From contig QHYI01000130.1 in assembly GCA_003223245.1 (NCBI GenBank), positions 76,986 through 140,985 on the forward strand: 64,000 nucleotides of DNA, given 5' to 3'. The DNA is from Acidobacteriota bacterium. Lineage in GTDB: Bacteria > Acidobacteriota > Terriglobia > Acidiferrales > UBA7541. A program made the position numbers and the translations under genes. The notes beneath the pieces were generated by a model. It was not told the origin of the DNA, did not search any database, and saw nothing but the letters and a program-made list of their open reading frames with translations. Positions within the stretch are counted from its first letter, which is position 1; every line of letters begins with the position of its first letter. Below are positions 52,329 to 62,454 of the stretch, one piece after another.

Positions 52329-53144
52329 ATGGTGGGTGACTGGAAAAAATTCGAGGGCCAGTTTTTCCAAGACAATTTTCCTCTTCAAAAGTTTTTGGGC
52401 AGCACGAGCTACAGCGCGGTCTTCCTAACGCAAACCCCCCCGCCGGAGCCAAAAACTCTCGCCATCAAATTTATAAGTTCTGGCGCGAAGGCAGATTTCC
52501 ACGCCTCTCTTTTGCGCCGCGCTTCAAAGCTTGTTCATCCAAATCTCCTTCGCCTGCTGCCTGGCGGCCCCTGCCGCCTTGCGGGTATGGATTTGGTTTT
52601 CGGGATGATGGAATACGCGAACCAAAACCTTGGACAAGTTATCCGCCGTCGTCCACTCACCAAAAAGGAAGCGCACGAATTGCTCGAATCGCTCCTCGAC
52701 GCGCTTGGCTATATCCACAGCGAAGGCTTTGCCCACTCTCACATCAAACCTTCGAACATCATGGCCGTGGGCAATCAACTCAAGCTCTCAAACGACGCGG
52801 TTCTCCCCCTCGGCGAACCTCGCCCGGCCTACCGCCCGCTTGACGCTTACGACCCGCCCGAGGCAGGCTCCGCGCCGGTTGCGCCTTCGAACGACGTTTG
52901 GTCTCTGGCGGTAACGCTGCTCGAAGTACTTACGCAGCAAGCTCCTGTATCATCTCTCGAGAGCCGAGACGATCCCGCCGTTCCTTCCACGATTCCTCAG
53001 CCCTTTTTCGACATCGCGCGAAACTGTTTGCGTCGAGATCCTCGGCTCCGCTGGACCACCGCTCAAATCAAGGATGCTCTCAAGTCTCTCCCGTCCAACT
53101 CCCCGCACCTGCCCCAGCGCTCGCCGCCACTGAATAAACAATAG
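52329..53144 (+). CDS. Protein kinase-fold pseudokinase (copy 1)
   Basis: This is a 271-aa protein with a eukaryote-like kinase fold and no transmembrane segment. The glycine loop (LGSTSYSAVFLT) and the lysine strand (LAIKFI) are recognisable. The catalytic loop reads HSHIKPSN instead of HRDxKPxN, and KLSNDAV replaces the DFG region, so the catalytic and metal-binding aspartates are absent. PPEAGS and DVWSLAVTLLEVLT (the APE and DxW regions) are preserved. It is therefore probably a non-catalytic scaffold or sensor. AGGGGATAAG precedes the ATG. A paralogue follows 119 nt downstream. Confidence 0.8.
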   Translation: MVGDWKKFEGQFFQDNFPLQKFLGSTSYSAVFLTQTPPPEPKTLAIKFISSGAKADFHASLLRRASKLVHPNLLRLLPGGPCRLAGMDLVFGMMEYANQNLGQVIRRRPLTKKEAHELLESLLDALGYIHSEGFAHSHIKPSNIMAVGNQLKLSNDAVLPLGEPRPAYRPLDAYDPPEAGSAPVAPSNDVWSLAVTLLEVLTQQAPVSSLESRDDPAVPSTIPQPFFDIARNCLRRDPRLRWTTAQIKDALKSLPSNSPHLPQRSPPLNKQ

Positions 53145-53263
53145 TCTGTATTTGCCCTGTTGTGCGAGAATTGGTCACGCCCATGCTCCAGGTTTAGGCG
53201 ATTTCAGGGTCCTCATCGCCTTTAATCCGCAGCCTTGCCCAACCGCGCTTGTGGGGTGTGCCA

Positions 53264-55048
53264 ATGAGAGATGACTGGAAAAAGTTTGAAGGCCAGGTTT
53301 TCCAGAACAGGTTTCCGCTTCAGAGGCTTTTAGGCGGTACGAGCTACGGCGCGGTCTTCTTGACGCAATCCCCTCCCCCGGAGCCCAAAAATCTGGCCAT
53401 CAAATTTATAAGTTGTGGGGTAAAGGCAGACTTCCAAGCCTCTCTGTTTCAACGCGCTTCGAAGCTGAGTCATCCAAATCTGCTCCGCCTGTTGCCTGGC
53501 GGCCCCTGCCGGTTTCTGGATATGGATTTGGCCTTCGCGTTGATGGAATACGCGGAGGAAGACCTCGGACGAGGTCTTTCCGGCCGGGTCCTCAGCGAAA
53601 AAGAAATTCGCGAAATGCTCGAACCGCTCCTCGACGCACTGACCTATATCCACAGCAATGGCTTTGCCCATTCTCACATCAAACCTTCGAACATTTTGGC
53701 CATCGGCAATCAACGCAAGCTCTCAAGCGACATGCTTCTCCCCCTCGGCGAACCTCGCCCGGCCTACCGCCCGCTTGACGCTTACGACCCGCCCGAGGCA
53801 GGCTCCGCGCCGGTTGCTCCTTCATGGGACATTTGGTCTCTGGGTGTGACGCTGCTCGAAGTCCTCACGCCCGAAACTCCTGTTTCATCTCCCGAAAGGC
53901 AAGACGATCCCGCCGTTCCATCCACGATTCCTCAGCCCTTCTTCGACATCGCACGGAACTGTTTGCGTCGAGAGCCTTCGCTGCGCTTTACCGCCGCTCA
54001 AATCAGAGATTGTCTCAACCCCGCTTCCGTTCAGGTGGCCGTCGCCGCTGGAGCGGCAGGGGTCATTGAACAGAAAATTGAACAGAAAATTGAGCAGAAA
54101 AGTGAACAGAAGAGTGAACAGAAAATAGACCCCGCGAAGGAGAATCCCGCTCCCGTCGAAGTTGCCGCACCGGCAGAGACTGCGGGCGAGGAAAAGAAGA
54201 TAGAGCCTCCGAAGGAAATGTGGGTAAACAGCAATTATTGCTGGGTGGTTGTATGTAAGAACCACTGGTTTCACGGGCGGGGCAATTTCTTTACCGTGCA
54301 CCGGATTCCATTGGGGGAGACCGACGCGGTGTGGCCTCGACCGAAGGTCGATAAACCATTTGGGGTCCGCTGCGATGAATGCGGCAAGGAATACATCTAT
54401 CAGCCCTCCGATGTATTGAAATACGAAATGGAAGCGCCTGCGTCTTTTGTACCCCATCCGCTGTTCGAGAAAAACCCCGAGACCGACGACGAGTCCGAGT
54501 CCGCAGTGCCCCCACCTGCAAATATGCAAGACCTGCAGTTCGCGCGAAGAAAACGGTTAGTGCGAGCCTTGCAACAGGTTGGGGTGGCGGCTTGCTTAAC
54601 CCTGATCGTTGCTGAATTTGTCCTAACCAATATGCCCAAGCTATCCGCGGATGTTTCTGGTCCATTACGTCCTGACGACCTCATGGGAGCCAAGTTCAAT
54701 CTGTCCAATAACGGCTTGTTGTCTGTTTACGATGTGAAAGCCGGATGCAAAGTGATGCGCGTTGACACACCTCTTTCTACAAACAGAGATTTTGCGGAAC
54801 CCACAACCGTCTATTTCCCTGAATCCTATGCTGAAATCTTGTCTCCTGGGCATGACATGGCGGTTCCGTGTGGACGAGCAATCTCGATCAAGCCCGCCAA
54901 TATCCAAGCGTCGGAAATCCACGCAGAAATGTTCTTTGTTGTCAGCTACAGGCCGAAAGGCGTCTGGTGGCACAAATCCGAAAATTTCCCGATGGAAACG
55001 CAGAAAACAGAAAATGGAAAGTGGGTATGGAAAAGCATCCCACGATGA
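53264..55048 (+). CDS. Pseudokinase (copy 2) with zinc ribbon and membrane C-terminus
   Basis: This is a 594-aa protein, paralogous to the upstream gene over its first 265 residues, again with HSHIKPSN and KLSSDML in place of the catalytic and DFG motifs. It then has a repeat EQKIEQKIEQKSEQKSEQKI. A beta region with two cysteine pairs (CKNH and CDEC, a probable zinc ribbon) follows, and a membrane helix (VGVAACLTLIVAEFVLTNM) precedes an exported C-terminal domain of about 140 residues. This gives a cytoplasmic pseudokinase with a periplasmic domain. The ATG at 53264 matches the paralogue start; the frame opens earlier at a TTG. Confidence 0.82.
   Translation: MRDDWKKFEGQVFQNRFPLQRLLGGTSYGAVFLTQSPPPEPKNLAIKFISCGVKADFQASLFQRASKLSHPNLLRLLPGGPCRFLDMDLAFALMEYAEEDLGRGLSGRVLSEKEIREMLEPLLDALTYIHSNGFAHSHIKPSNILAIGNQRKLSSDMLLPLGEPRPAYRPLDAYDPPEAGSAPVAPSWDIWSLGVTLLEVLTPETPVSSPERQDDPAVPSTIPQPFFDIARNCLRREPSLRFTAAQIRDCLNPASVQVAVAAGAAGVIEQKIEQKIEQKSEQKSEQKIDPAKENPAPVEVAAPAETAGEEKKIEPPKEMWVNSNYCWVVVCKNHWFHGRGNFFTVHRIPLGETDAVWPRPKVDKPFGVRCDECGKEYIYQPSDVLKYEMEAPASFVPHPLFEKNPETDDESESAVPPPANMQDLQFARRKRLVRALQQVGVAACLTLIVAEFVLTNMPKLSADVSGPLRPDDLMGAKFNLSNNGLLSVYDVKAGCKVMRVDTPLSTNRDFAEPTTVYFPESYAEILSPGHDMAVPCGRAISIKPANIQASEIHAEMFFVVSYRPKGVWWHKSENFPMETQKTENGKWVWKSIPR
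54068..54127 (+). repeat. Five 12-bp tandem repeats encoding (EQKI/S)5
   Basis: Five imperfect copies of GAACAGAAAATT in frame inside the second pseudokinase. They encode a charged, probably helical linker between the kinase fold and the zinc-ribbon region. Copy number could vary by slippage. Confidence 0.85.
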
Positions 55049-56802: not shown

Positions 56803-57336
56803 CTAAACGCCCAAGTCCGGTATCGCCCGCAAGGCATCGTTGAAGCGGTTGGTGAAATTCGCGAGACAGACGACCATGGTGAGTTCCACGATTTGTGCTT
56901 CGTCAAAAAACTTCCGCAATTCCTCGAGCGTGCCCGTGCGCATCGCGGCCGCTCCGCGCGTTACGCGCTCGGCGTACAAAAGCGTGGCTTTGTCCTTCTC
57001 ATCAAAGAGCGGGCTGCGCTCATAAAACTCGAGTGCCTGGATCTGTTCGTCGGTAATGCCGATTCGCTTCGACGAAGCGATATGCGCGCGCGTTCAATAT
57101 TCGCACCCGTTGAGCAGCGACGTTTTTAGGTAGGCCAGCTCTTTGTAGCGCGCTTCGACCGCGCCTTCGTTCATGATGGCCCCGAACAAAGGCAGGAAAT
57201 TCTTCAGCACGTTCGGCCGGTGGGCCATCAGCCCGAAAATCGCGGGCATTTTGCCGAATTTTTTGGGCAACTCTTCGTAGACAGCGCGCAGCTCTGGCGC
57301 AGCTTTTTCTTTTGTCAAAGGACTGACAACGGCCAT
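56803..57336 (-). CDS. AhpD/carboxymuconolactone-decarboxylase-like selenoprotein (in-frame TGA = Sec81)
   Basis: This is a 177-residue protein if TGA at 57094-57096 is read as selenocysteine. It starts at the ATG at 57336 with GGAGG 6 nt upstream. Family features: LPLFGAIMNEGAVEARYKEL, then NGCEY-U-TRAHIASSKRIG, where Cys78 and U81 occupy the CxxC redox site of AhpD-like proteins, and FTNRFNDALRAI near the end. The frame remains open and family-like for 96 codons past the TGA to TAG at 56803-56805. A SECIS-like hairpin follows the TGA, and selA is nearby. It probably works as a thiol/selenol peroxidase or disulfide reductase. The alternative is a nonsense mutation of the second cysteine (TGC to TGA). 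Confidence 0.75.
57064..57080 (-). promoter_or_regulatory. Candidate bacterial SECIS hairpin
   Basis: On the transcript strand TCGCTTC-GTC-GAAGCGA forms a perfect 7-bp stem with a 3-nt loop beginning with G. The loop starts 21 nt after the in-frame TGA, within the 16-37 nt spacing I recall for bacterial SECIS elements, and a G at the start of the loop fits the SelB recognition rule. Confidence 0.6.
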
Positions 57337-57980
57337 AAGCAACCTCCATAGGCAAGCAAATGAACATAGAAATTTTACCGGAGTTGATCCCGCTGAGGCT
57401 AGTAATTCGGGACCCAAGGAACCGCTTGAGCCGGATCAAACCCAGCAGCAAGGGTCTCCTTTGGGATGGAGCCAAAATTCATAACGATCCGCTAACGCTC
57501 GATCGGCATCTTCCCCCGGCCAGCCCTGCGGCGCAAAACAGCAACCAGGGACTCGGGAGTGATGCGGCGCGCCTGACGGAGATTTGCTCGGCACAAGCAC
57601 CCAGCGCTGAACCGCTGGCACGGTCGAAATCGCACATGGAGAAGGGCTTAAGCGGGAGAAACTTTGCGCTACTTTTGGGGTTTGTGATCACTCTGTCGCC
57701 TGAAAGGCGACGGCTTCTCGCGGCACGCATGAGCATGAGACGACATCCTCTACGTTATGCCGCGAACGCCCGATCCGGGCGCGTTGCAGTATGCTGTCCA
57801 CGGCAACGGATTTGCGCAGATTGATCAAAAGACTTTCGCGCGGAAGATTGGCTGGCCCGGTCCACGACGCCGGATGGAACGCTTTCTTTGCCATCTATAC
57901 GCTTTGGCGACAGAGATGTTCGTTGTGTAGGTGAGAGGGCCACTCATTTGAAGCCATTAGGGCCAAGCACGCGCGGAGGT
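57337..57980. other. Gene-poor region upstream of the selenoprotein gene
   Basis: This is 644 nt with several weak frames on both strands but none with coding-like composition plus a ribosome binding site. A short stretch near 57780-57850 reads LQYAVHGNGFAQIDQKTF on the plus strand and could be a remnant. No RNA gene was recognised. Confidence 0.35.
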
Positions 57981-60714: not shown

Positions 60715-61005
60715 TCTTGCCAAGGCTCCCGAGAGCTCCATGCTAGGGTGACGAGAGGAAAGCGTCAACCACGGAGCGAAAAGGTGCTTCGAATGCGACA
60801 TGGAGAGGAACCTAACGGCTTCGACCGGGCCGGAGTAACCTGCCCGGGGGCGGCAGGCTAAAGGTATGGCCATCTTGTGGCTTGCGGCATGGCTGCCGTT
60901 CGCGGGAGGGTAAAAAGCCGTGCCCTCTACAAACATTCCTCTTGGGGGTGGGATGCGCATCCGACAGGATTGCCCGGGTGGGCGGCTCTGTGCTGAAATG
61001 TGCGC

Positions 61006-62454
61006 ATGGCGTCGCACACCAAACGAGGGATTTCGGCCGAACAGTCAGAACTGCTGCGGCAGATTCCGTCGGTCGACGAGCTGCTCGCCGAGCCGCGCCT
61101 GGCAGAGCTTGCGAAGCGCGTGGACCGCAATCTGGTCGTCGAAGTTGCGCGCGCCGTGCTGGAGGACCTGCGAGGACGCATCACCGGGCAGGCGGCCACC
61201 GCCCTTCTCGCGGAAATTTCTCCTGTGGCGTGCGATCCGGCATCGCTCGAAGAGCGCATCACTAGGATGGTAGAGCGGATTCTGGCGCGGTCGCTGCTGC
61301 CGGTGATTAACGCGACAGGCGTGATTTTGCACACGAATCTGGGACGCGCGCCGCTGCCGGAAGGCGTAGTGGAAGAATTTCGCCGCACGGCGACGCGATA
61401 TTCGAATCTCGAATATGACCTGGAAGCGGGATCGCGAGGGAAACGCGACGTGCATACGGCGGAACTGCTGAAGAGGCTCACGGGAGCGGAAGCCGCGATG
61501 GTGGTGAACAATTGCGCGGCAGCGGTGCTGGTCACGCTAGCGGCGTTTGCGCGCGGCGGCGAGGTGATTGTTTCGCGCGGCGAACTGATTGAGATTGGCG
61601 ACGGGTTTCGCATCCCGGAAATCATGGAGCAGAGCGGGGCACAGTTGCGCGAGGTGGGAACGACGAATCGCACACGGCTCGCGGATTATGAGAAGGCGAT
61701 CAACGAAAAAACGCGGTTGTTGCTGCGCGTGCATCCATCGAATTTCAAAGTAACCGGATTCACGGACAAACCGTCGCTTGAAGAACTTGTCTCGTTGAGC
61801 GAGCGCACGGGAATTGCTCTAGTGGAGGATCTTGGGTCCGGCTGCCTCACCGACTTGGCCGAGCACGGGATCAGCGAGCCGACGGTGCGGCAGAGCGTGG
61901 AGGCGGGCGTTGGGATTGTGACCTTTAGCGGAGATAAGTTACTCGGCGGGCCGCAGGCGGGAATCCTTGCTGGGAAAAAAGATTTGATTGCACGCGTGCG
62001 GCGGCATCCGATGTTCCGCGCACTGCGGGTGGACAAACTGACGACTGCAGCGCTGGAAGTCACGCTCGGCGCGTATCTGCGCGCGGCGTGGGACGAAATT
62101 CCGGTGATGCGGATGATTCGCGTGACGCCACAGGAATTGCAGCGCCGCGCGGAGAATTTCATCCGCGAGCTGCGCCCGGAGCTACCGCGAGACGAAGTGG
62201 AGATCGAGGTGGTAGACGGAGCTTCGCTGGCCGGAGGCGGCTCGACTCCAACACAATCGCTGCCCAGCAAAGTGGTTCGCATTGCCAGCGCTCGCTATTC
62301 CGCCGCAAAGCTCGGGCAGCGTCTGCGCCGCGCGCCGGCGGGGATTTCCGTCATTGCGCGCGTGGAAGAAGATCGCCTGGTCCTCGATTTGCGGACTGTA
62401 TTTCCCCACGAGGAACCTTTACTTCTCAAGACACTCGCCGCCGCGCTGCGCTAG
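61006..62454 (+). CDS. selA: L-seryl-tRNA(Sec) selenium transferase
   Basis: SelA is the PLP enzyme that converts seryl-tRNA(Sec) to selenocysteinyl-tRNA(Sec) using selenophosphate. The 482-aa protein from the ATG at 61006 (a GTG at 61000 is possible) has the typical N-terminal helical part (LRQIPSVDELLAEPRLAELA). The PLP core follows: INATGVILHTNLGRAPLPEG, YSNLEYDLEAGSRGKRDVHT and the PLP lysine near residue 312 in FSGDKLLGGPQAGI. Its presence shows the organism can probably decode UGA as selenocysteine. selB and the tRNA-Sec gene are not in the window. The ribosome binding site is weak. Confidence 0.95.
   Translation: MASHTKRGISAEQSELLRQIPSVDELLAEPRLAELAKRVDRNLVVEVARAVLEDLRGRITGQAATALLAEISPVACDPASLEERITRMVERILARSLLPVINATGVILHTNLGRAPLPEGVVEEFRRTATRYSNLEYDLEAGSRGKRDVHTAELLKRLTGAEAAMVVNNCAAAVLVTLAAFARGGEVIVSRGELIEIGDGFRIPEIMEQSGAQLREVGTTNRTRLADYEKAINEKTRLLLRVHPSNFKVTGFTDKPSLEELVSLSERTGIALVEDLGSGCLTDLAEHGISEPTVRQSVEAGVGIVTFSGDKLLGGPQAGILAGKKDLIARVRRHPMFRALRVDKLTTAALEVTLGAYLRAAWDEIPVMRMIRVTPQELQRRAENFIRELRPELPRDEVEIEVVDGASLAGGGSTPTQSLPSKVVRIASARYSAAKLGQRLRRAPAGISVIARVEEDRLVLDLRTVFPHEEPLLLKTLAAALR

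Follow-up and report, generated by a model that had tools for sequence, protein, structure and literature searches.

A predicted AhpD-like selenoprotein in Acidobacteriota with a conserved in-frame UGA and a covarying SECIS-type hairpin

A gene on the minus strand of the window, the whole 64,000-nucleotide stretch of acidobacterial DNA analyzed here, encodes, with a probability that we place at about 0.96, a selenoprotein of the AhpD-like kind (CMD/peroxidase-related, YciW/COG2128), in which an in-frame UGA takes the place of the second Cys codon of a CxxC motif. Judging from its sequence, the product is predicted to be a small antioxidant-type enzyme of a soil-type acidobacterium, with the active-site Cys exchanged for selenocysteine (Sec). 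The computed evidence comprises the gene itself, the conserved UGA, a covarying hairpin, the Sec machinery of the genome, purifying selection and the fold of the product; Sec insertion in the cell is what we infer beyond these points.

Reading frame, homologues and selection

Translation of 57336..56803 with TGA read as Sec yields 177 residues followed by TAG; the sole in-frame TGA is codon 81, and 96 codons come after it (Table 1). The first-pass annotation had placed an ORF at 56803-57336, with a TGA at the second Cys of CxxC and 96 codons beyond it, and these points stand; it left the strand unstated, however, and the forward strand of this interval does not encode the protein in question. 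The product scores 58.7 bits against the Pfam CMD model (PF02627), compared with a gathering cut-off of 23, and the match covers residues 41-122, so that the domain runs across the TGA at codon 81.

Table 1. Coordinates of the predicted selenoprotein gene, its associated elements and related features (window positions unless a locus is named)
Feature	Position	Strand	Details and basis
AhpD-like selenoprotein gene (predicted), ATG to TAG	56803..57336	-	177 residues, Sec at 81; translation, Pfam and homologues
Shine-Dalgarno GGAGG	57343..57347	-	6 nt before ATG
UGA predicted to be read as selenocysteine 81	57094..57096	-	motif C78-E-Y-U81 at 57094-57105
Predicted bacterial SECIS hairpin, UCGCUUC-GUC-GAAGCGA	57064..57080	-	7 bp, 3-nt loop starting with G, UGA-to-loop 20 nt
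selA, L-seryl-tRNA(Sec) selenium transferase	61000..62454	+	564 bits to TIGR00474
Sec-AhpD::GAF fusion	L042:1042-2007	-	Pfam
Sec-AhpD::GAF fusion	L039:1489-2406		Pfam
Sec-AhpD::GAF fusion	L040:1492-2412		Pfam
Sec-AhpD::GAF fusion	L043:1483-2307		by length only

We gathered homologues from two sources, the GTDB contig set and 297 genomes belonging to the same phylum. Across the 63 in which the site is covered, a few of them representing one genome reached twice (e.g., L021/L064 and L022/L066), the codon aligned with position 81 is TGA in 46, a Cys codon (TGC/TGT) in 16 and a Ser codon (TCT) in one; none of the 63 has Trp at this site, and none carries a second in-frame TGA in the aligned domain. 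The earlier argument that a TGA at the one residue where Sec makes chemical sense is not a matter of chance agrees with these counts, as does the expectation of Cys or Sec at position 81, the single Ser form aside. Every one of the 46 TGA forms retains C78, whereas four forms without TGA have Thr there. These four (L029, L032, L044 and L046) have TxxC instead of CxxC/CxxU, and three of them belong to genomes without selB; in this homologue set, the first Cys of the motif is lost only in forms without Sec.

The codons past the TGA are under purifying selection, as foreseen in the claim that the gene shows no decay there. In the comparison with the closest relative (82% identical), where dS is about 1, dN falls from 0.144 upstream of the TGA to 0.084 downstream, and seven further pairwise comparisons again give a lower dN after the TGA than before. 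The low dN indicates that the post-TGA part is translated and constrained. The window protein belongs to a close group from Acidobacteriota and Rokubacteria, the members of which are 57-82% identical to it.

SECIS hairpin and Sec machinery

Published constraints for bacterial SECIS elements specify a loop of 3-9 nt with G in one of the first two places, a stem of 4-16 bp, a distance of 16-37 nt from the UGA and a minimum free energy of at most -7.5 kcal/mol (PMC13188914). The window hairpin falls within all of these bounds (loop of 3 nt, GUC; stem of 7 bp; distance of 20 nt; minimum free energy of the isolated hairpin, -8.5 kcal/mol), and it starts 13 nt after the UGA, as it does in nearly all TGA forms. 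Covariation was assessed on 38 TGA homologues aligned without gaps, a set that leaves out L037, L077-L080 and L082, TGA forms with a slightly shifted hairpin and a longer, GGUC-type loop. In columns 17-23/27-33 of this alignment, 99.6% of the cells are paired, with compensatory (both-side) changes in six of the seven pairs; pairing falls to 35-55% when the hairpin partner is slid, and 0 of 500 shuffles reach either the observed paired percentage or the covariation score. RNAalifold, unaided, recovers the same hairpin and nothing else from the 38 sequences. The Cys homologues (n = 14) have 45.9% of cells paired, with no excess over shuffles. Folded as a single sequence, the GC-rich hairpin region of the window is no more stable than its shuffles (z = 0.90), a value that is unsupportive when taken alone, so the case for a SECIS draws on conservation and evolution and not on stability; Rfam at the gathering threshold gives no match in the 64,000-nt window. 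The alignments support the prediction of a bacterial SECIS that is conserved with TGA and not with Cys.

The genome also encodes tRNA-Sec (64.4 bits, anticodon TCA), selB (356.9 bits) and selD (345.5 bits), the product of the last also being a selenoprotein, whose Sec lies in KAAGUAAK; all three components that the first-pass annotation had named for a genome search are therefore present. Its remark on selA holds for distance, since the gene sits 3.7 kb from the AhpD-like gene in the same window, but the linkage is unconserved and hence lends no support. A tblastn comparison of the window neighbours with 36 loci from the GTDB contig set found no conserved neighbour, which speaks against a functional unit of the AhpD-like gene with selA; the linkage is accordingly treated as chance, and the nearness of selA probably means nothing. 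A weak FmdA/AmdA-type match beside the L082 gene (26% identity) was judged coincidental. Elsewhere in the window (52329-55048, plus strand), two adjoining genes share similar N-terminal sequences that, by eye, are apparently protein-kinase-like, and the second has a long C-terminal extension. In one Terriglobia family, the AhpD-like gene is convergent with selB and near its 3' end (G084:C21, L031; G265:C4, L038; and G210:C107); the selB-adjacent gene has Sec in G265, and the match is without TGA in G084 and G210.

Throughout the phylum, selB occurs in 196 of 297 genomes. It is present in 43 of the 45 genomes with a listed TGA-bearing match versus 153 of the 252 others (p = 7e-7), and in the focal set in 41 of the 42 genomes bearing the TGA form versus 9 of the 15 bearing the Cys form (p = 8e-4), the genomes being phylogenetically related so that neither p-value comes from independent samples. 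The exceptions are G110/G311, apparently one MAG reached twice, where the TGA form is found with neither selB nor tRNA-Sec, and G266, a genome with a TGA form in which no selB was found; these may be incomplete bins.

A tree of 59 homologues needs at least nine changes of Sec/Cys label. One Cys form, L053 (4387-4917, plus strand), is sister to the Sec form L052 and retains six of the seven hairpin pairs, and searches of its genome for selB and tRNA-Sec found neither. This combination, a largely preserved SECIS hairpin in a Cys form whose genome gave no match to selB or tRNA-Sec, is what a recent move from Sec to Cys would leave behind, and L053 is likely an instance of such a change caught in place.

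Two other explanations of the TGA can be weighed against these data. It might have arisen as an error of sequencing or assembly, or by nonsense mutation of a gene undergoing decay, the real product being the Cys form or an 80-residue fragment; the assembly is indeed a draft of 237 contigs, and 16 homologues do have Cys at the site. However, dozens of genomes that were assembled separately and carry the labels Acidobacteriota, Rokubacteria and NC10/Methylomirabilota have the same TGA, and this common TGA, together with purifying selection on the codons past it and a covarying hairpin that accompanies TGA and not Cys, rules out a sequencing error or a pseudogene for practical purposes. Alternatively, the UGA could be read by near-cognate suppression or as Trp, which is compatible with the frame, since the frame itself shows nothing beyond readthrough of a single UGA; on the other hand, the genome holds a full Sec system, the SECIS hairpin is conserved, the site holds TGA, Cys and one Ser only and Trp in no homologue, and many homologues of the AhpD-like gene end in a TGA stop, all of which leaves this reading with a negligible chance of being correct. 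Decoding of the UGA as Sec, and with it the original assignment to a selenoprotein of the AhpD/CMD family, is supported by the homologues, by the covariation in the SECIS-type hairpin and by the Sec machinery.

Fold, active site and proposed function

An AlphaFold2 model of the product (pLDDT 91.5) has the all-helical AhpD fold. The closest solved fold is 6k40 from D. radiodurans (Z 22.9, 1.7 Å over 176 residues); other close folds are the AhpD-type 2oyo and 6e8l, the Bmp8 debrominase (Z 20) and M. tuberculosis AhpD (Z 12.7). The best sequence match among solved structures is PA0269 of Pseudomonas aeruginosa (2ijc/2o4d; 30-34% identity in structural alignments), which has a shorter N-terminus and whose Cys51 occupies the place of Sec81 in the window protein. 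The relay residues of PA0269 are Glu36, Cys48, Tyr50, Cys51 and His55 (PMC3141380), and E66, C78, Y80, U81 and H85 of the window protein correspond to them one-to-one, with identical E-C-Y-C-H spacing and Sec for the second Cys. In five TGA homologues of the L077-L082 group, Q replaces E66 and N replaces H85, so that not all members of the wider set share the proton relay.

We propose that SelD would provide selenophosphate, with which SelA would turn seryl-tRNA(Sec) into Sec-tRNA(Sec), and that SelB, bound to the hairpin just past the UGA, would bring this tRNA to the ribosome, where Sec at position 81 would replace termination. In the folded protein, U81 and C78 would form a CxxU redox pair, with E66, Y80 and H85 assisting as the proton relay. 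The Sec selenolate would most likely attack a hydroperoxide or a related oxidized substrate; the oxidized Se would be resolved against C78 as a selenenylsulfide, which a cellular thiol donor would then reduce. The AhpD-type fold and the PA0269-like relay point to a Sec-dependent hydroperoxidase as the most likely function, an assignment that we favor, taken by itself, with clearly less confidence than the presence of Sec. The peroxidase activity, the substrate, the first-attacking residue (U81 or C78) and the reductant are all presumptive, and a peroxide substrate in particular is a guess from family membership, because homologous CxxC proteins such as Bmp8 do other chemistry too.

It is also conceivable, if rather unlikely, that the protein is a true selenoprotein with a role other than that of a hydroperoxidase, either reductive dehalogenation, as in Bmp8, or service as a disulfide/selenenylsulfide adaptor in the recycling of a peroxiredoxin, in the manner of AhpD for AhpC; the thiol-disulfide adaptor role is the main alternative. 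Bmp8 (6ohi/6ohj), a Cys enzyme acting on bromopyrrole, ranks first in Foldseek (E 6.6e-9) and shares the fold over the whole chain at 22% identity; the PA0269 report describes AhpD as an adaptor with AhpC, and the reported rate of PA0269 with H2O2 in the FOX assay was only 0.16 µM H2O2 per unit time (PMC3141380). Against this, 6k40 and 2oyo, both AhpD-type, outscore Bmp8 by Z. The neighbouring products tested against Pfam include no dehalogenation or peroxiredoxin protein and the gene context is unconserved, so that neither points to a specific partner. Less probable still is that the close group from Acidobacteriota and Rokubacteria constitutes a Sec enzyme family apart, acting on a substrate of its own (as dehalogenases, for instance, or as reductases dedicated to a peroxiredoxin); if it did, the repeated Sec/Cys switches, some of them in genomes without selB, would offer a natural series for testing the purpose of Sec.

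In one Acidobacteriota family, the reading frame of the AhpD-like Sec domain extends into a GAF domain at the C-terminus; the resulting fusions of 306-322 residues (Table 1) could possibly act as redox or peroxide sensors.

Relation to known AhpD-like selenoproteins

AhpD-like CxxU selenoproteins were first described from the Sargasso Sea in 2005 (PMC1088965). They were reported from genomes in 2006, by a study whose table also has Acidobacteria with four selenoproteins (PMC1794560), were abundant in GOS in 2008 (GOS AhpD-like 1; PMC2398784), and appear in reviews of 2022 and 2026 (listed in PMC13188914); the statement of the first-pass annotation that AhpD-like selenoproteins had been reported from metagenomes is correct. 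The window protein is a further branch of this already known kind (COG2128/TIGR01926), with which it shares the AhpD-type domain, Sec as the second residue of the CxxU pair, a bacterial SECIS right after the UGA and Cys homologues in other organisms. The known members come from marine samples or Alkaliphilus, whereas the window protein comes from Acidobacteriota and is borderline by TIGR01926 (peroxidase-related enzyme), scoring 78.8 bits against a cut-off of 81.8, a near miss over a full-length alignment; the model does not file it as a member, although on its predicted features it would work like one. Its best NCBIfam match, NF053654 (GroundWater_YciW, YciW-related (seleno)protein), is likewise a (seleno)protein family, and the score of 98.5 bits over residues 1-171, against a cut-off of 310, indicates that NF053654 is a relative of the group of the window protein but distinct from it; eight homologues tested singly all lie far below that cut-off. 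Scores below both of the nearest NCBIfam cut-offs argue for a further branch that is likely missed by TIGR01926 and NF053654, and the protein may escape standard annotation.

Ordinary gene calling would cut the proteins of the Acidobacteriota/Rokubacteria group to 80 residues. Their recognition adds a well-supported group of Sec proteins to Acidobacteriota and Rokubacteria, and close natural pairs, L052/L053 among them, make it possible to test the trade-offs of Sec for Cys.
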